In this document: positions 2,124-25,466 of the stretch, piece by piece
Position numbering within the stretch: the stretch's first letter is position 1
How the letters are laid out: every line of letters begins with the position of its first letter
Source: a virus
Length of the DNA: 26,222 nucleotides
IMG/VR virus record: IMGVR_UViG_3300033571_007219
Coordinates: 1 to 26,222 of that record
Direction: 5' to 3' (one strand)
The notes under the pieces: model-generated
Database searches by the model: none
The model's input: the letters and a program-made list of their open reading frames with translations, nothing else
What the model was told of the DNA's origin: nothing
Translations under genes and position numbers: made by a program

Positions 2124-2936
2124 ATGAGAATCAGAACAATTAAGCCCGAGTTTTTCATGCACGATGGTCTGCATGATTTAGAAAAGGAATCAGCGCTGCC
2201 CGTCAGAATAGCATTCGTCGGCCTATGGTGCGCCGCAGATCGAGAGGGTCGATTCCGCTGGGAAGCGAGAAGGCTAAAAGCGCAAATCCTCCCTTACGAT
2301 GAATGCGACTTTTCACGCGTGCTCGACGCGTTGACCACGCGTGGATTTCTCGTTAAGTATCGCGTGAGGGACGCCTGGTTTGGGGCGATTCCGACATGGA
2401 AAAAGCACCAGATCATCAATAATAAGGAGAGGGCGAGCGAGTTACCGCAAATGCCTCCCACTGAAGACCTTGACGCGTTGACCACGCGTGAGGATCGCGT
2501 GCATCACGCGTGCCTTAAGGAAGGGAAGGGAAGGGAAGGGGAAGGGAACACTATTGCGCCGGCTGACGCCGTCGCGGCAGAAAGGCCAAAAGATCTGATC
2601 TTCGAGGCTCTATGTTCAGCCACCGGAACCGACGCCCGTAGCCTGACGAAATCTGGCCGCGGCGCGCTCAACGCAGCGCTTCGCGACATCCGCGCAGCCT
2701 CGCCCGGGGTAACGCCGGAAGAAATCACTAGACGCGCTAACCGCTACTCGCGCAAGTTTCCGAGCGCCGCCTTAACTGCGCCTGCTCTGGCGAAGCACTG
2801 GGCCGCATGCGTGGCTCCGCCGGCAGACGATTGGACACGCCAGCAGATCAAGAATGCGACCAAGGCCGAGCCGTTGGAGCCGGCTGACATCCTAGCCGAT
2901 CTGCCAGATGTGAAACGCCAGTTCGGGATCGCATGA
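2124..2936 (+). CDS. Phage replication initiator / replisome organizer protein
   Basis: A 270-aa protein. Residues 1-105 match the winged-helix N-terminus of phage replisome organizers: the opening MRIRTIKPEFF, then 'GLWCAADREGRF', 'RRLKAQILPYDE', 'VLDALTTRGFLVKY' and a 'WKKHQIINNK' end. In these proteins this domain binds the origin. A low-complexity linker (about 108-155, including KEGKGREGEGN) leads to a C-terminal helical domain (158-235, with ARSLTKSGRGALNAALRDIR and KFPSAALTAPALAKHW) of the type found in phage Rep proteins that recruit helicase or loader. It sits directly before the DnaB-type helicase gene with an ATGA overlap. Its own coding sequence carries phased repeats and a G-rich tract that look like the origin, as in lambda O. 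Confidence 0.82.
   Translation: MRIRTIKPEFFMHDGLHDLEKESALPVRIAFVGLWCAADREGRFRWEARRLKAQILPYDECDFSRVLDALTTRGFLVKYRVRDAWFGAIPTWKKHQIINNKERASELPQMPPTEDLDALTTREDRVHHACLKEGKGREGEGNTIAPADAVAAERPKDLIFEALCSATGTDARSLTKSGRGALNAALRDIRAASPGVTPEEITRRANRYSRKFPSAALTAPALAKHWAACVAPPADDWTRQQIKNATKAEPLEPADILADLPDVKRQFGIA
2315..2342 (+). repeat. Iteron cluster 1 (three ACGCGT at 11-bp spacing)
   Basis: ACGCGT occurs at 2315-2320, 2326-2331 and 2337-2342, exactly 11 bp apart, so all three face the same side of the helix. The first and third are extended to the palindrome CACGCGTG. The 19-bp unit GACGCGTTGACCACGCGTG (2325-2343) recurs exactly in cluster 2. The repeats lie inside the initiator gene (codons 64-73). 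Confidence 0.75.
2473..2511 (+). repeat. Iteron cluster 2 (ACGCGT at 11-bp spacing)
   Basis: ACGCGT occurs at 2473-2478, 2484-2489 and 2506-2511, with a one-base variant TCGCGT at 2495-2500 filling the gap, giving four units at exact 11-bp steps. Positions 2472-2490 repeat the 19-bp unit of cluster 1. The cluster lies in the linker-coding part of the initiator gene (codons 117-130), directly before the purine tract. Confidence 0.78.
2517..2548 (+). other. Homopurine, G-quadruplex-type tract next to the iterons
   Basis: A 32-base run without a pyrimidine on the + strand. It contains five G-tracts of 3-4 bases separated by AA (2523-2546), which satisfies the usual G-quadruplex pattern with 2-nt loops. 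It encodes the Lys/Gly/Glu-rich linker of the initiator protein. It sits 6 bases beyond the last iteron, the position held by the strand-asymmetric, easily melted region in the lambda origin. Together 2315-2548 is my candidate replication origin. Confidence 0.7.
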
Positions 2937-4309
2937 AACCAGATCCGACATTCGACCAGGACGCCGAGCGCGCACTGGTGGGCTGCGCCTTCATTGATCC
3001 TGCCGGCGTCGTCGGCATGGCTATGGGCTTCGAGTTGCGCGAGGAATCATTCGTCGATCCGATCGCGCAGTCCATCTGGGGCATCATCAGCAAGATGCTT
3101 CTGGCCGGCGAGCCGGTCGATGAAACGACCGTGTGGGTTAAGCTCAAGGCGGCGAAGGGCGACCGCGAAGCGACCCAGGCCATCCTCGAGGTAACGCACG
3201 ATAATGTGCTCGCGATAGCGCGCAATACCCCGACGACAGCGCGAGCAAAATTCTTCGCGACGCGGGTGCGGCACTGCGAGATCCTCCGCCAGTTAATGCG
3301 CGAGGCCGGCGCGATCACGACCAACATCCGCGAAGCCGGATCTGAACCGGCCGAGGATCTCGTGCGCGAAGCGGGCGCCAGGATCCTAGCGATCGAGGCG
3401 CAGCAGCGTAACGAATCCTGGGCGGAATCGCTCGTGAAAGCTGACGCCGAGATTACGGCACGCATCTCTGGTGAGCGCGACGGAATGCGCGAAGGCGCAC
3501 TGTCCTGGGGCTTTCAAGACATGGACCGGATCTTCGGCCTGATCCAGCGCGGCGAAATGGTCGTCGTCGCGGCGCGGCCGAGTGTTGGCAAGTCTTCTCT
3601 TGCCAGGCAGATCGCGTTACATGTCGCGCTAAAGCAAAACCAGCAGGTGCTATTCGCTTCGCTCGAGGTCATCGGCAGCACGCTGGCGCTGAACTTTGCG
3701 CAAACGATCGCAGGCATTTCGCTGCGAGCAATCACGCCGAAAACGCACCCGAAAGATGTGCAGGCTATTCGCGACGCAGCGCAGCGCATCTCCTCCGCTC
3801 CGCTCGAGGTCGTCGCCGCCGGGAATGTCAGCTTGGCAACCATGCAGGCACGCGCCGAGGTCTTGCGGGCTCGGCAGACGCCGCCGCGGCTAGTGGTCGT
3901 GGATTACATCGGGCTCATGCCTGACGCTACACCCGCCCGCGGCGAGAACAGAGCGCAAAGTGTGGGCCGCGTATCGCGTGCGTTAAAGCAGTTCGCGCTG
4001 CGCAATGATTGCGTCGTGATGGTGCTTGCCCAGCTAAACCGCGAGTCAGAGCGTGACGAGCGCGTGCCGCGAATCCACGATCTGCGCGAGTCCGGCGACA
4101 TTGAGCAGGACGCCGACAAGATCGTGCTGCTTCACCGGCCGGCTGAAGATCCGCTGACATCTGCGCCGCAAAGTCCTACGGCTGACGCTGACGAGCTACC
4201 GCGGTTTTATATTTCGGCAATACAGGCGAAAGGCCGAAACGATGGCACTGGATCTGTCGGGCTATATTTTAAGCGCTCAACTGCTACATTCTTTCCCGTA
4301 ACTAGGTAG
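2933..4309 (+). CDS. dnaB: DnaB-type replicative DNA helicase
   Basis: A 458-aa hexameric 5'-3' helicase. Residues 4-110 match the DnaB N-terminal domain (DPTFDQDAERALVGCAFIDP) and residues about 185-458 the RecA-like domain. Walker A is ARPSVGKSS (214-222), with Val where most homologues have Met. The H2 region is LFASLEV, Walker B is RLVVVDYIGLM (319-329), H3 is AQLNRESE (366-373), and DLRESGDIEQDADKIVLLHR (383-402) is the family signature that includes the arginine finger region. Length is normal for bacterial DnaB. It overlaps the initiator stop by 4 bp (ATGA), so the two are coupled and presumably partners at the origin. No separate DnaC-like loader is present in the window. Confidence 0.95.
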   Translation: MKPDPTFDQDAERALVGCAFIDPAGVVGMAMGFELREESFVDPIAQSIWGIISKMLLAGEPVDETTVWVKLKAAKGDREATQAILEVTHDNVLAIARNTPTTARAKFFATRVRHCEILRQLMREAGAITTNIREAGSEPAEDLVREAGARILAIEAQQRNESWAESLVKADAEITARISGERDGMREGALSWGFQDMDRIFGLIQRGEMVVVAARPSVGKSSLARQIALHVALKQNQQVLFASLEVIGSTLALNFAQTIAGISLRAITPKTHPKDVQAIRDAAQRISSAPLEVVAAGNVSLATMQARAEVLRARQTPPRLVVVDYIGLMPDATPARGENRAQSVGRVSRALKQFALRNDCVVMVLAQLNRESERDERVPRIHDLRESGDIEQDADKIVLLHRPAEDPLTSAPQSPTADADELPRFYISAIQAKGRNDGTGSVGLYFKRSTATFFPVTR

Positions 4310-4618: not shown

Positions 4619-4998
4619 ACTTTGTGCCGCTGACGCCGAATCTGACCACGCACCCGTGGCAAGAGCTTGAGCGGCCAAAGCGCGCCGAGCTAGTCGGTGA
4701 AATCGCCGAGCGTCTGATTGAATGGTCAGAGCTCGAGGGCCGGCCGCGGGTCCACCGCTGGATCTCCCAGGTGGCGCGCATGGGCGGCGACCCGGAGAGC
4801 ACTGAGGCGATGTGGCTATATCTGCGACTATCGACCGGCGACCTGGGAGAACTGACGAGCTCTTTTACCGAGCTAGGGAAAAAGCGCAGCCGCACGAAGC
4901 AGGCCGAGCAGCAGGAAACCGAGCGGGCCATGGCAGTGATCGCACGACATTTCCCAGAGCTAGAGAAGGCACTTAACGATCTGAAGCGAGCCAAGTGA
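4615..4998 (+). CDS. Hypothetical protein preceding the small terminase
   Basis: A 127-aa protein that starts at GTG 4615 inside a GTGA overlap and ends in another GTGA overlap with the small terminase gene. Residues 18-45 (ELERPKRAELVGEIAERLIEW) and 55-85 are helical. The C-terminal third (KKRSRTKQAEQQETERAMAVI) is basic and looks like a helix able to bind nucleic acid or a partner. There is no known fold by eye. Strict coupling to the terminase genes suggests a packaging accessory or late regulator; this is inference from position only. Confidence 0.6.
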   Translation: MNFVPLTPNLTTHPWQELERPKRAELVGEIAERLIEWSELEGRPRVHRWISQVARMGGDPESTEAMWLYLRLSTGDLGELTSSFTELGKKRSRTKQAEQQETERAMAVIARHFPELEKALNDLKRAK

Positions 4999-5498
4999 GC
5001 GAGCACAAGACGCACACGGCGCTGGCACGAGCGCTGAACGTATCGGCGACCGCTATTCGGAACTGGCAGCGCGAATATGACGACGCGCCGAAAGCCTGGG
5101 TCGAGGCCGAGTGGCGCGATTTCATCGACCGTCACGGTCTCGGCCAGGCTGGCCCGCGCAAAAGCCGACGACGCGAGGAACTGCTGGTCGAGAAGCTCGC
5201 GAGCGAGGTGCGGCTTAACCAGATCAAGATTGCGCAAGCCGAGGCCAAGCTGATCCCGGCCGAGGATGTGGACAACTACCTGCTGTTTCTCGCCGCCCGG
5301 GTAAAATCAGCCATGTACCAGGGTTTTACCACCGAGCTACCGCCCAAGGTCGCCGGGCTCGATGTAAGCGACATCCGCCGGCTGGCCCGCGAGCACGCCG
5401 ATCTGGTGTGCGTCTCAATGCAGAACGCGCTCGAGGACTGGAAGACCGAGCAGAACGCACGGCGCAAGGCTGCCGCGCAGGAGGCCAAGAGCGCATGA
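4995..5498 (+). CDS. Terminase small subunit (Nu1/HTH type)
   Basis: A 167-aa protein directly upstream of the GpA-type large terminase, where the DNA-recognition subunit belongs. Residues 6-27 (THTALARALNVSATAIRNWQ) form a clear helix-turn-helix, as in Nu1-like small subunits that bind the packaging site. A basic patch follows (KSRRREELL, about 56-64), then a long helix (LASEVRLNQIKIAQAEAKL) and an 'LIPAEDVDNYLLFLAARVKS' segment typical of phage small terminases. The C-terminus is Arg/Ala-rich and would contact the large subunit. The GTG start overlaps the upstream stop. The family call rests on architecture and position. Confidence 0.82.
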   Translation: MSEHKTHTALARALNVSATAIRNWQREYDDAPKAWVEAEWRDFIDRHGLGQAGPRKSRRREELLVEKLASEVRLNQIKIAQAEAKLIPAEDVDNYLLFLAARVKSAMYQGFTTELPPKVAGLDVSDIRRLAREHADLVCVSMQNALEDWKTEQNARRKAAAQEAKSA

Positions 5499-7294
5499 GC
5501 CTCGAGATCCTACAGGGCTGGCGCCGCGGCTGGGCGCTTCCAGATCGCCGGCCGATCCACGACTGGGCGCGTGACTTCGTGCAGCTGGGCGGAGGTTACG
5601 CACGCCAGGGCGCATTCGACATCCGCACCTGCCGGCATCTGCTCGAGCCGTTCGAGGCCGTCGCCGACGAGCGCGTGCGCGAGGTTACATGCCGCGCCGC
5701 GATCCAGACGCTTAAAACACTCTTCGTCGAGATCTGCAGCCTCTGGGCCATCGCTAACGAGCCCGGGCCGATCATGTGGACGCAGCAGGACGACGAGAGC
5801 GCCGCGGAGCATGTCAAGGGACGCTACCGCAACTTACTGCGCAACTGCGAGCCGGTCGCCAGGCTACTGCCGAAAAACAAGCACGACGCGGCTACCTGCG
5901 AAATCTACTTTGGCGATTTCTACCTGATAATTAACGGGGCGAATCTGAATAATCTCCAGAGCAAGTCGATCCGCTGGAAGCTGAACAGCGAGTGCTGGCT
6001 CTGGAAGCAAGGACTGCTGACGCATGCTCGCCGGCGCGTCTCCGCCTACGCTCGCGACGGCATCAGCAAGATCCTAAACGAGAGCCAAGGATCGCACGCG
6101 GACGATGACTTCGACCGGCTCTGGCACGAGGGCACGGCGCAGATCTGGTCGGTGCAATGTTTCGGCTGCCAGCGATTCGTGCCGCTCGAGTTTTTCGGCC
6201 GGGCCGCCGACGATCCGGCCAAGCGCGTCTGCGTCGTCTGGGACGAAGGCGCCCGCAAGGAAAACGGCATGTGGGACGAGCAACTGGTGCGCAACTCGAC
6301 GCGCTGGATCTGTCCGCACTGCGCGCACGAGCATGCGAACAGCGCAGCCACCCGGGCACGCTGGAACAGCACCGGCCGCTACTCGGCGCCGCGAGCAGAT
6401 CGCGACGGCAAGCACCGATCGTTTAACTGGAACGCGATTCTGGCCGAGGACATGGGCCAACTAGCGGTCGAGTTCCTGCAGGCCGGCGAATTCAAGAAGC
6501 GCGGACAGATCAACCCGCTGCGCGATTTCTACATGCAACGGCTGGCGCTGCCTTGGCGTAACGAAGAGGCGCAGCTGAACCGCACGACGGTCGAGCTCCG
6601 CGGAACATACACGCTCGCTGACATGCACGCCCGGGGCCGCGAGAAGCTCGAGAACGAGGCCCGTCGCATGATGACAATAGACCGGCAGCGCGATCACTTC
6701 TGGGCGGTGGTTAGAGCCTGGAAGAGCGACGGAGGCTCCCAGCTGCTATGGCGTGGCAAACTCAGCACGACCGAGCAGGCCGAGGGGATTCGGCAGCACT
6801 TTGGCGTTGAATCGCAGCTGTGTTTCCAGGACGCGCAGTTCAGCACCGCGCATGTGTACGAGGACTGCATCCGGTTCGGCTGGACTGCGCTCCACGGCAG
6901 TGGCGATGACTCATTCGTGCACATTCGGCCAAACGGCCAGAAAGTTCAGAAATTCCACTCCAGCATTAAGCAGACGCAGGTGCCCGGCGGTTATGCGCGC
7001 TACATGTTCTGGGCTTCCGACCCGGTTAAGGATGTGCTGGCCGCACTGGTCGCCGGCAACTCGCATGCCTGGGAGTGCGGCGCCGATCATGGCGAAGAGT
7101 ACGCCCGCCATCTCCGCGGCGAGGTAAAGCGCGAGCGAATCAGCAAGAGCACCGGCCGGAGCGAGTGGCGCTGGACGAAGACCGGGCCGAATCACATGTG
7201 GGACTGCGAAGCCATGCAGGTGGCCGTGGCTCTCGCGCTGCAGCTTTTACCCTCACCCGAGAAGATGGACGCCAGCACGGCATCCGATACATAA
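5495..7294 (+). CDS. Terminase large subunit, GpA family
   Basis: A 599-aa DNA-packaging ATPase/nuclease. ATG 5495 is chosen because it overlaps the small-subunit stop (ATGA) and follows the Shine-Dalgarno CAGGAGG. The start is family-typical: 'PIHDWARDFVQLGGGYARQGAFDI' is where GpA proteins place their conserved N-terminal block (about residues 20-43). 'CRAAIQTLKTLF' (66-77) occupies the place of GpA's degenerate Walker A. Two CxxC pairs (C222/C225 and C273/C276) give the zinc-binding insert usual in this family. The C-terminal half carries the nuclease domain, with acidic residues such as 'CFQDAQF' and a final 'NHMWDCEAMQVAVAL'. GpA enzymes generally make cohesive ends, so a cos-type genome is expected. 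Confidence 0.93.
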   Translation: MSLEILQGWRRGWALPDRRPIHDWARDFVQLGGGYARQGAFDIRTCRHLLEPFEAVADERVREVTCRAAIQTLKTLFVEICSLWAIANEPGPIMWTQQDDESAAEHVKGRYRNLLRNCEPVARLLPKNKHDAATCEIYFGDFYLIINGANLNNLQSKSIRWKLNSECWLWKQGLLTHARRRVSAYARDGISKILNESQGSHADDDFDRLWHEGTAQIWSVQCFGCQRFVPLEFFGRAADDPAKRVCVVWDEGARKENGMWDEQLVRNSTRWICPHCAHEHANSAATRARWNSTGRYSAPRADRDGKHRSFNWNAILAEDMGQLAVEFLQAGEFKKRGQINPLRDFYMQRLALPWRNEEAQLNRTTVELRGTYTLADMHARGREKLENEARRMMTIDRQRDHFWAVVRAWKSDGGSQLLWRGKLSTTEQAEGIRQHFGVESQLCFQDAQFSTAHVYEDCIRFGWTALHGSGDDSFVHIRPNGQKVQKFHSSIKQTQVPGGYARYMFWASDPVKDVLAALVAGNSHAWECGADHGEEYARHLRGEVKRERISKSTGRSEWRWTKTGPNHMWDCEAMQVAVALALQLLPSPEKMDASTASDT

Positions 7295-7331: not shown

Positions 7332-8675
7332 ATGAAAGTTCTATTCTCGAACCCTCCCTGGTGGGATGTGGATCTGAAGACGCAGCAGCTCCTGATCGGC
7401 GTGCGCTCCGGCTCTCGCTGGCCGTTCACCCGCTACTCGGTGCACGCGCCGGGCGAATTTCGACACGGAGGCTATCTGCCGTTCCCGTTCTTCCTAGCTT
7501 CGGCCGCCGCCCGCACCCGGGCGACACTGCCAGATGCGACAGTAGAGATCCGGGACTCGATCGCCCGGGGCGAATCCTACCAGCAGTTTTTCGACGCAGT
7601 CCTTGCCGATCCGCCTGACTGGGTCGTGCTCGAGACGGCGACCGCGGCCTGGGTGCATGACGAGAAAGTGATCGACTGGTTCGCCGCGAAGACAAAGGCG
7701 CAAATCATCCTATGTGGCCCGCTGGACATTACCAAGGCCGACGAGATCTTGGGCCGGCATCGTAACATCGCGGCGATCGTCCAGGGCGAATACGACAAGC
7801 AAGTGCTGCGCGTGATCCGCGGACAGCGCGGAGTGATCGCGCACGATCTGCTAACGGTGCAGGAGATGGACAGCCTTCCGTACCCGCTGCACGACGAGGT
7901 CGCGGTCGGTAATTACTGGGACGCGTGCCCGAAAGGCCAGGAGGCGCCGCAGCTGCAGCTGATCACGAGCCGCGGCTGTCCTTACAAGTGCATTTTCTGC
8001 GTCTGGCCGGCGGTAATGACTGGCAACGATCCAGATGGCACCAGAGCGCGCACGGTGCGCTGCCATTCGCCCGAGTGGGTCCGCGGAGCGATCAAAACGC
8101 AGATCGACGACGCCTGGACGAAGGGCGTGCGCTACAAGAGCATTTATCTGGACGACGACACGTTTAACCTGACCGAGAAGCATACGCGGCTGATTTCCCG
8201 GGTGATGGAAGAGTTCCGCCTGCCTTGGTTCGCAATGTGCCGAGCCGACACGATCAAAGAGGAGACATGGAAGCTCATGATCGAATGCGGCTGCCGGGGC
8301 GTTAAGCTCGGCTTCGAGAGTGGATCGCAGACCGTCATTGATAAGATAATCAATAAGCGGCTGAATCTAGCGAAGGCGGCCGACACGGCGCGCATGCTGA
8401 AAAAGCTAGGGATGACCGTTCACGGCACGTTCACCGTCGGGCTTCCGGGCGAAACAAAGGAACAGCAGCAGGAAACGATCGCCTACATAAAAGACCTTTA
8501 CGACACCGGCGGATTAGACACGCATCAACTGAGCGGCACCGCTGAGATCGAAGGAACACCGCTGCACACTCTCAAGGTAACTGGCTCACTTGAAAAATAC
8601 GCCGCGGCTAAAATCGACGAAGCCTATGTGGCGAACCCGGACGGAGCGGCGAAGCTGCGCCAGATGAAATTATAA
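7332..8675 (+). CDS. Radical SAM protein with probable N-terminal cobalamin-binding domain
   Basis: A 447-aa protein. CPYKCIFC (C216, C220, C223) is the CxxxCxxC motif that binds the [4Fe-4S] cluster of radical SAM enzymes. It is preceded by the characteristic 'LQLITSRG' strand and followed by 'YLDDDTFN' (272-279), 'KLGFESGSQTVIDKI' (325-339) and 'GTFTVGLPGET' (365-375), all standard for the B12-binding radical SAM group. Residues 1-175 have the Rossmann-like pattern of that group's cobalamin domain, starting MKVLFSNPPWW, although the classical DxHxxG cobalamin ligand is not evident. Such enzymes methylate or rearrange unreactive carbons; the substrate here is unknown. It lies between terminase and the gpW-position gene, paired with a glycosyltransferase-like gene 3 bp downstream. 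A gene of this kind in this place is unusual for a phage. Confidence 0.9.
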   Translation: MKVLFSNPPWWDVDLKTQQLLIGVRSGSRWPFTRYSVHAPGEFRHGGYLPFPFFLASAAARTRATLPDATVEIRDSIARGESYQQFFDAVLADPPDWVVLETATAAWVHDEKVIDWFAAKTKAQIILCGPLDITKADEILGRHRNIAAIVQGEYDKQVLRVIRGQRGVIAHDLLTVQEMDSLPYPLHDEVAVGNYWDACPKGQEAPQLQLITSRGCPYKCIFCVWPAVMTGNDPDGTRARTVRCHSPEWVRGAIKTQIDDAWTKGVRYKSIYLDDDTFNLTEKHTRLISRVMEEFRLPWFAMCRADTIKEETWKLMIECGCRGVKLGFESGSQTVIDKIINKRLNLAKAADTARMLKKLGMTVHGTFTVGLPGETKEQQQETIAYIKDLYDTGGLDTHQLSGTAEIEGTPLHTLKVTGSLEKYAAAKIDEAYVANPDGAAKLRQMKL

Positions 8676-13548: not shown

Positions 13549-14448
13549 ATGAGCAACCAAATAGCACACGCGCCGGCTGATGCCGGCAACGCATTAACAG
13601 ACCACGCTGCCGAGATTGCAGCGGTCTCGAGCAGGACCGAGGAGGCGCCCGCGCCTATGGTCTTCGACGAAGCCGATAGGATCGTCATCGGCACGCCGTG
13701 CTACGGCGGTAATGTCAAGATGGGCTTTATGACCTCGTACAACGAGACGCTGCTGCACGTTCGCATTCGCGTGCGTAACGAGCAGGGCGAGGTCGAGCTG
13801 CAGCCACTCGTGGCCGAAAGCATGTTTCTCGACAAGGAAAGCCACATCGACCGGGCACGAAACAAGATCGCGGCGAAGTTCCTGGCGACCAAGTACAACT
13901 GGCTGCTGTATATCGACGCCGACATCGTTTTCCCGGGTAATGCAGTGGCACGGCTCTGGCAGCACGGCATGGTCGGCCACAAGATCGTTACCGCACCTTA
14001 CGCGCTTAAGGGCGTCGTGCCGCAATTCGCGATCAATGGGCTGGCTGGCGCCAAGATCGACGAGCGCGGGCTGGTCGAGGTGGTGCACGCCGGCACCGGC
14101 TTCATGCTGATCCATCGCAGCGTGTTCGACGCCATCCGCGAGGCCGGCCTGGCGCCCGAGTACAATCTTGGCAGCAACGATCCCGACGTTCATACGCTTA
14201 AGACCTCCCGCGCTTACTTCAAATCTGGCGTGCGCGAAGTGATGCCGGGAAATCCTATCTGGTTATCCGAGGATTACATGCTGTGCCACGAGTGGCGAAA
14301 GCTCGGCGGCAAGATCCACACCGACACGAAAGTGGCACTGAGTCACATCGGCGATCTGACCTATCCGGCGAATCCCAAGGAGATCTTCGCGGCAGTCGGC
14401 GAGCTCCGCCGGATCAAGCATCCTGATTGCCCAAGCACGCTAGTCTAG
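13549..14448 (+). CDS. GT-A fold glycosyltransferase
   Basis: A 299-aa protein with a GT2-like layout. 'RIVIGTPCYGG' (44-54) is the nucleotide-binding first strand and 'WLLYIDADIVFP' (118-129) contains the DxD pair D123/D125 that binds metal and nucleotide-sugar. 'GTGFMLIHRSVF' and 'LSEDYMLCHEWRKLGGKI' (about 238-255) carry the acidic acceptor-side motif. No signal peptide or membrane segment is present, so it acts in the cytoplasm. It sits just after the major capsid gene, separated by the structured element, and 1 bp before the head-tail connector gene. Glycosylation of the capsid or another virion protein is a natural reading; modification of host glycan or DNA cannot be excluded. Confidence 0.82.
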   Translation: MSNQIAHAPADAGNALTDHAAEIAAVSSRTEEAPAPMVFDEADRIVIGTPCYGGNVKMGFMTSYNETLLHVRIRVRNEQGEVELQPLVAESMFLDKESHIDRARNKIAAKFLATKYNWLLYIDADIVFPGNAVARLWQHGMVGHKIVTAPYALKGVVPQFAINGLAGAKIDERGLVEVVHAGTGFMLIHRSVFDAIREAGLAPEYNLGSNDPDVHTLKTSRAYFKSGVREVMPGNPIWLSEDYMLCHEWRKLGGKIHTDTKVALSHIGDLTYPANPKEIFAAVGELRRIKHPDCPSTLV

Positions 14449-24719: not shown

Positions 24720-25466
24720 GTGAAACGCACGACCTCGAGGCGCTTCGTTGTGGTAGCGGACAGCCACGGCGACATGCTCGATCCCGAGGTGGCGAAGGCT
24801 CTGTTCGCTTTCCTCGAGGACTGGCAGCCTGACATCCGCGTGCATGCCGGCGATGCCTGGGACTTTAGGAATCTGCGCCGCGGTGCGAGCGACGACGAGA
24901 AGGCCGCGAGCCTGGTCGATGACTGGGACAAAGGGTCAGAATTCTTAACACGTTTCTTCGAACGTGGAAAAGAAAACCACTTTTTAAGGGGTAATCACGA
25001 CGAGCGGCTCTGGCACTTCGCGGGATCCGCGACCGGCCTGCTGCGTGATTACGCCCAGGACGGCATCAAGCGCGTCCAGGCACTCATGCGCAAGTGCCGG
25101 GCGACGATGCTGCCTTACGACGCTGCGCTTGGTGTGCTCCGCCTGGGCGAGCTACGCGTCGTGCACGGCTACCATGCCGGCGTCGGCGCCACACGGGCGC
25201 ACGCGAACGTGTATCGGAACGTGATTTTCGGGCACACGCACACGATCGAGACGACCGCGATTCCCTCACTCGAGCCATGCGAGGCTCGCTCGATCGGCTG
25301 TCTTTGCGTGCGCGACATGGACTACATCAACGCCAAGACGGGCAAACTGCGCTGGGGCCAAGGCTGGGCCAGCGGAATCCTCCACGATGACGGCACCTAC
25401 ACGCTTAACCAGATCCGCAAGATCGACGGACGTTTTGTCGCGCCGGTCGAGTTCAAGACCTACTGA
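24720..25466 (+). CDS. Calcineurin-like metallophosphoesterase
   Basis: A 248-aa protein starting at GTG 24720, next to the preceding TAA. All five metal/catalytic blocks are present: ADSHGD (D14, H16), 'VHAGDAWDF' (D45), 'RGNHDERLW' (N92, H93, D94), 'VVHGYHAG' (H149) and 'FGHTHT' (H172, H174). These enzymes hydrolyse phosphomonoesters or phosphodiesters with two metal ions; the substrate cannot be told. No signal peptide, so it acts in the cytoplasm. It stands after the lysis-like cluster and before an HTH protein, an accessory position where it might act on nucleotides, nucleic-acid ends or signalling molecules. Confidence 0.9.
   Translation: MKRTTSRRFVVVADSHGDMLDPEVAKALFAFLEDWQPDIRVHAGDAWDFRNLRRGASDDEKAASLVDDWDKGSEFLTRFFERGKENHFLRGNHDERLWHFAGSATGLLRDYAQDGIKRVQALMRKCRATMLPYDAALGVLRLGELRVVHGYHAGVGATRAHANVYRNVIFGHTHTIETTAIPSLEPCEARSIGCLCVRDMDYINAKTGKLRWGQGWASGILHDDGTYTLNQIRKIDGRFVAPVEFKTY

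Follow-up and report, generated by a model that had tools for sequence, protein, structure and literature searches.

The segment at positions 2315–2548 of the DNA analysed here, a 26,222-bp IMG/VR phage record (hereafter the window), is most likely a phage replication origin located inside its own initiator gene and laid out on the plan of phage lambda, a reading to which we assign a probability of about 0.87. From the comparative evidence, it is very probably best described as a lambda-type origin that lies within a gene and uses a winged-helix initiator not of the lambda kind. The proposed origin combines two arrays of phased 11-bp iterons with an adjacent, strand-asymmetric GGGAA tract.

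The gene that hosts the origin (2124–2936, + strand) encodes a protein of 270 residues, of which residues 1–162 match PHROG 16167, 'replication initiation protein' (E = 6e-42); no Pfam family was found for this protein. The end of the initiator gene overlaps by 4 bp with the start of a gene for a DnaB-type replicative helicase (2933–4309, + strand; PF03796, E = 1e-53; PF00772, E = 1.5e-9; PHROG 19). A RusA resolvase gene is located upstream of the initiator and the terminase genes (4995–7294) are located downstream. Between the terminase and portal-region genes, inspection by eye revealed a radical-SAM-like protein (7332–8675) with a SRGCPYKCIFCVWP motif, cargo that the structural module of a phage does not usually carry. 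Glycosyltransferase-like (13549–14448) and metallophosphatase-like (24720–25466) reading frames, also recognized by eye, lie among the structural and late genes.

AlphaFold2 predicted an N-terminal winged-helix-like domain (residues 1–110, pLDDT 88–98), a disordered linker of about residues 111–154 (pLDDT below 50 for residues 124–154) and a helical C-terminal domain of less certain structure. Searching the PDB by sequence gave no match, and the PDB fold search gave generic winged-helix matches only, none at E ≤ 0.001; among them are weak resemblances of the N-domain to ArsR/MarR repressors and of the initiator to a solved initiator (4pt7). Matches in a viral fold library were to other phage replication proteins and to 'replisome organizers'. 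Judging from the order of helices and hairpin in the predicted model, the helix of residues 63–72, which is partly encoded by the first iteron array, is probably the recognition helix. In four relatives (L461, L451, L156 and L022), HNH-endonuclease-like domains were seen by eye as insertions in the linker, where they separate the winged-helix domain from the origin tract, and one member of the initiator alignment matches Pfam HNH.

In the first array (2315–2342), ACGCGT occurs at 2315, 2326 and 2337. The second array (2473–2511), encoded in the linker, carries ACGCGT at 2473, 2484 and 2506 and the variant TCGCGT at 2495. Together, they comprise six ACGCGT and one TCGCGT in exact 11-bp steps, in full agreement with the original prediction. 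A 22-bp unit is common to both arrays (95% identity, 147 bp apart), and within it we found the 19 identical bases previously proposed to be shared by the two clusters. Elsewhere in the window, the motif is present as isolated copies only (7921, 16607 and 25154), also as anticipated. We shuffled synonymous codons within the gene 2000 times, preserving the protein and its codon usage. The shuffled genes had on average 0.84 ACGCGT copies, versus 6 observed, and 0.01 pairs at 11 bp, versus 3 observed; no shuffle reached either observed value. The clustering in the initiator gene is thus beyond chance, with no overall enrichment in the window (9 copies observed versus 12.3 expected).

Pairs of ACGCGT exactly 11 bp apart were found in 49 of 64 non-redundant initiators (<80% identity) collected by protein similarity only, a fraction that holds for this neighbourhood of the query's nearest relatives and not for the whole superfamily. 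These initiators contain 157 such pairs, against a null of about 1, and none at gaps of 6–10 or 12–20. Array 1 is present in 45 members and array 2 in 48, including low-GC genes of 39% and 41% GC (L012 and L020), and the consensus of the iteron unit is (C/G)ACGCGTG. Since a step of 11 bp does not preserve the codon frame, the units within each array necessarily fall in different frames; across the 64 genes, the copies are distributed over the codon phases as 120/94/80, and the last unit of array 2 likewise occupies all three (21/16/11). Rigid phasing between the two arrays is not conserved, as their spacing modulo 11 varies among members. In the remaining 15 members phased ACGCGT is absent; some of these have other 10–12-bp repeats and a few have none. 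The original prediction had raised the prospect that homologues might keep the amino acids and lose the repeats, but the opposite was found, with the repeats persisting though the protein varies. These comparisons show that the iterons are selected at the DNA level.

Alternatively, the repeats might be a by-product of repetitive linker peptides (TRExRV, KGREGKG) selected for their amino acids, given that close relatives resemble each other in the peptides encoded and that array 1 encodes a conserved helix. This explanation is effectively excluded, because the codon-preserving shuffles never reproduced the repeats, and the use of all three reading frames also argues against it. Moreover, one DNA element encodes peptides as different as KGREGKG, GNGNGN, QKGTEQ-like or IPSLPYPVPIP, and members having the peptide with scrambled codons were not seen. 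Arginine is specified by AGR in 74% of tract codons versus 19% elsewhere, a comparison that is partly circular given that the tract was chosen as a purine run.

Comparison of the individual domains shows that the iteron sequence follows the N-terminal domain. L014 has a C-terminal domain like that of the window (72% over 98 residues) and an unrelated N-terminus; its 11-bp iterons are of the AAGCACAACCC type and its tract is GGAATA. L409 shares its C-terminus with the window (66%), its N-domain has diverged (37%), and it carries TTCGCG-type repeats. Conversely, L394, L011 and L012 have N-domains like that of the window (54–66%) and unrelated C-termini, and retain ACGCGT. Other members without ACGCGT have 11-bp steps of GAAGCAAC (L021), TGCAAG (E. 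coli and Bordetella types) or TCGCGA (L213), and Mycobacterium phage Charlie, whose initiator is of the same kind as that of the window, has TTGCGC at 11-bp steps. Among the 23 members that lack ACGCGT arrays, six-mer pairs at lag 11 are in excess (52 versus 7 expected); lags 7, 8, 10, 14 and 21 are enriched as well, and we attribute the 7/14/21 series to the GGAATCA-type tract. From these module swaps, we infer that the N-terminal domain is the putative iteron binder.

The phased array also proved a marker of this initiator family in searches made with DNA only. When IMG/VR was scanned for three ACGCGT copies in phase, at least 120 contigs were returned, and in 104 of the 120 listed, the array falls within the initiator gene of this family. 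In several of the others, it lies, by eye, in genes resembling other phage initiators (DUF1376-like L060 and L108; L048/L123; L027). A control scan with spacers of 0–4 bases, in all 25 combinations, gave 35 contigs only, 10 of them in the initiator family and mostly with 10-bp steps. With spacers of 6–20, family triplets appeared in only 6 of 98 newly fetched contigs, among the matches listed. Among GTDB genomes, 38 of 117 matches fell in the initiator family, mainly in Burkholderiales and Rhizobiales, and most others fell outside it. In the whole contigs of 20 relatives, 68 of 69 ACGCGT pairs at 11 bp were at a single place, the initiator locus. Thus, the arrays appear restricted to the initiator gene.

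Such a gene-bound array could also be read as an operator for repression or timing of the initiator gene by its own product, and not as an origin. Autoregulation from iterons is known for many initiators, and the weakly ArsR/MarR-like fold of the N-domain would suit a repressor. We nevertheless consider an operator quite improbable: the arrays lie 190–390 bp into the coding region and not at a promoter, a search around the gene for sites resembling sigma-70-type promoters found none, and an operator leaves unexplained the adjacent GGGAA tract, which is common to initiators with different iterons.

This GGGAA-repeat tract (2517–2548, + or coding strand) is the longest purine/pyrimidine run of the window and the candidate unwinding element of the proposed origin. 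As described in the original prediction, it is 32 bases long, begins 6 bases after the final ACGCGT and contains five runs of at least three G. A purine run of at least 32 arose in 86 of 2000 synonymous shuffles of the window gene, which is less striking than the iterons; the tract reaches significance only at the family level. At least four GGAA within 40 nt of the coding strand were found in 55 of the 64 protein-selected members versus 20% of synonymous shuffles, and the mean purine run is 31.0 versus 15.4 in shuffles for 138 representatives, part of which had been selected by motif. The modal spacing of GGAA is 5 bp, and the tract can be described as a GG(G)AA repeat every 5–7 bp. Both array 2 and the tract are encoded within the predicted disordered linker, which implies weak protein constraint on either.

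The sequence of the tract varies among relatives. Repeats of GGGAAC occur in L038, L119, L041 and L450, inverted TTTCC/TTCCC tracts in L465 and L197, and a GGAAAGGAAAGG-type tract at the same place in L018. A second class, CTGATTCC, which is GGAATCA on the other strand, is found in phages of E. coli, Hafnia, Pseudomonas and Vibrio. Lambdoid E. coli phages of the Dewey or Louie type combine it with TGCAAG iterons. The initiators of L469/L472 (E. coli), L473 (Pseudomonas Fyn8) and L476 (Hafnia yong1) contain repeated LIPDS peptides, the CTGATTCC DNA being the reverse-strand counterpart of the GGGAA tract.

It had been proposed that the tract is of the G-quadruplex type. The motif of four runs of at least three G is indeed present in the window tract and in 30 of the 64 members, but it is missing in more than half of them, the others having GGAAA, GGGAAC or inverted TTTCC tracts; we therefore rejected the quadruplex as the defining property of the tract. 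It is likewise unlikely that opening depends essentially on a quadruplex in the G-rich strand, given that the same place can be taken by the tract types of L018, of L038 and L119, and of L465 and L197. The comparative data suggest that quadruplex formation is not required.

Scanning by DNA only for four copies of GGGAA, we found 78 of 108 ORF-overlapping contigs in the initiator family, always with the repeats on the coding strand; the corresponding scan for CCTGATTCCTGATTCC placed 90 of 102 in the family. Many of the remaining GGGAA matches are other initiator types, the scanned examples being DUF1376/primosomal and O-like proteins. By eye, these initiators have repeats of their own upstream of the tract, such as 12-bp TGTNACA (L535) or 11-bp GTCACC (L540). 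An AT-rich unwinding region was not found, the tract being about 40% AT and only the spacer and the tract being mildly weak. The inter-array spacer (2343–2472), a possible second melting region, is a less stable duplex on family average (z of +0.3 to +0.8 between positions −160 and −60 relative to the tract; nearest-neighbour profile of 47 members). Single-stranded folding of 2300–2560 gave a z of −2.0.

Similarity between the window and L014 sets in at the tract, which marks the boundary of a domain exchange, as might be expected if the site were a recombination hotspot or served another cis function, such as packaging or partition, at a domain boundary. Such a role is very improbable, for it accounts neither for the exact 11-bp phasing nor for repeats that track the DNA-binding domain, and one would look for a packaging site close to the terminase genes.

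Taken as an origin, the segment retains the lambda-like plan of the original prediction, namely phased iterons in the initiator gene, a strand-asymmetric tract and a DnaB gene beside it, and loses the quadruplex part. We propose a putative model for its action. The N-terminal winged-helix domains would bind next to each other on the palindromic 11-bp ACGCGT iterons, which are spaced by about one helical turn. The two bound arrays would then bend the intervening DNA, yielding a compact initiator complex. The bending strain on the adjacent GGGAA tract, and possibly on the weak spacer too, would promote opening, and the phage's own DnaB, the product of the following gene, would be loaded onto the exposed strand. 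The tract may open through strain, through a register for single-strand binding, or through an RNA–DNA hybrid formed on transcription. The inverted tracts argue against a strictly transcription-oriented opening mechanism.

GC skew gave no pointer to the site in the window, in phage ct4oC223 or in a Bradyrhizobium phage-plasmid. In VvAW1, the detrended skew minimum falls within about 1 kb of the initiator gene, where gene direction switches too. Phage ct4oC223 (L479) has a second ACGCGT cluster (37460–37510; copies at 37460, 37482, 37493 and 37504) at a distance from the initiator and directly upstream of the gene for the large terminase; in VvAW1 (L477), further ACGCGT pairs at 11 bp occur singly outside the initiator, at 6961, 20084 and 25522.

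The two DNA-only searches, together with the other initiator types among the GGGAA matches, point to a GG(G)AA element shared across initiators. We tentatively extend the model, at somewhat less than even odds, to tailed phages at large. They might share a modular intragenic origin, in which iterons of about 11–12 bp specific to each DNA-binding domain are followed by a common GG(G)AA element (5–7-nt period, either strand) in place of the AT-rich region; a partner common to otherwise unrelated initiators would recognize this element, probably as a single strand or RNA–DNA hybrid. The parts are separable, as the iterons track the DNA-binding domain, unlike the GGGAA element. Should the tract prove to be a shared opening element, it would represent an alternative to the AT-rich unwinding region that is directly testable. 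The layout also provides a simple DNA signature that predicts the origin in numerous phages and prophages, for which the searchable papers show no mapped origin. In open-licence PMC papers, we found no binding, footprint or replication experiment on the initiator family, and no description of its repeats.

Among known systems, the extrachromosomal mycobacterial prophage Miko needs only a RepA-like initiator gene and 171 bp upstream for replication, and the authors suspect an origin immediately upstream of or inside repA (PMC7157519). No repeats were identified there, and that RepA is of the plasmid type, different from the window initiator (PMC7157519). Iteron plasmid origins of the RepA/RepE type resemble the present site in their tandem repeats, which are initiator-bound in plasmids, and in a winged-helix initiator, as suggested by the weak match to 4pt7. 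Unlike in those origins, the window repeats lie inside the gene, and the window has no DnaA box (TTWTNCACA). In lambdoid phages of E. coli, Hafnia and Pseudomonas, the initiator family occupies the slot of lambda O between the cII and nin genes, and an ATPase or helicase-loader gene follows it. A 6.2-kb E. coli 'plasmid' (NZ_CP081787), considered as a minimal replicon, was rejected as a linear piece of a lambdoid phage. The arrangement corresponds to that of ori-lambda, with its iterons and AT-rich tract in the middle of gene O (PMC7466680). As in ori-lambda and the origins of lambdoid and Stx phages, the window origin sits mid-gene in the initiator, with tandem iterons followed by an asymmetric tract and a helicase function downstream (PMC7466680, PMC6022878). 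In contrast to lambda O, the window initiator has no match to Pfam Phage_rep_O or to an O-like PHROG. The 19-bp inverted repeats of ori-lambda are replaced by two arrays of 11-bp repeats with a 6-bp palindromic core, its AT-rich region is replaced by GGGAA repeats, and, unlike in lambda, DnaB itself is encoded next to the initiator.
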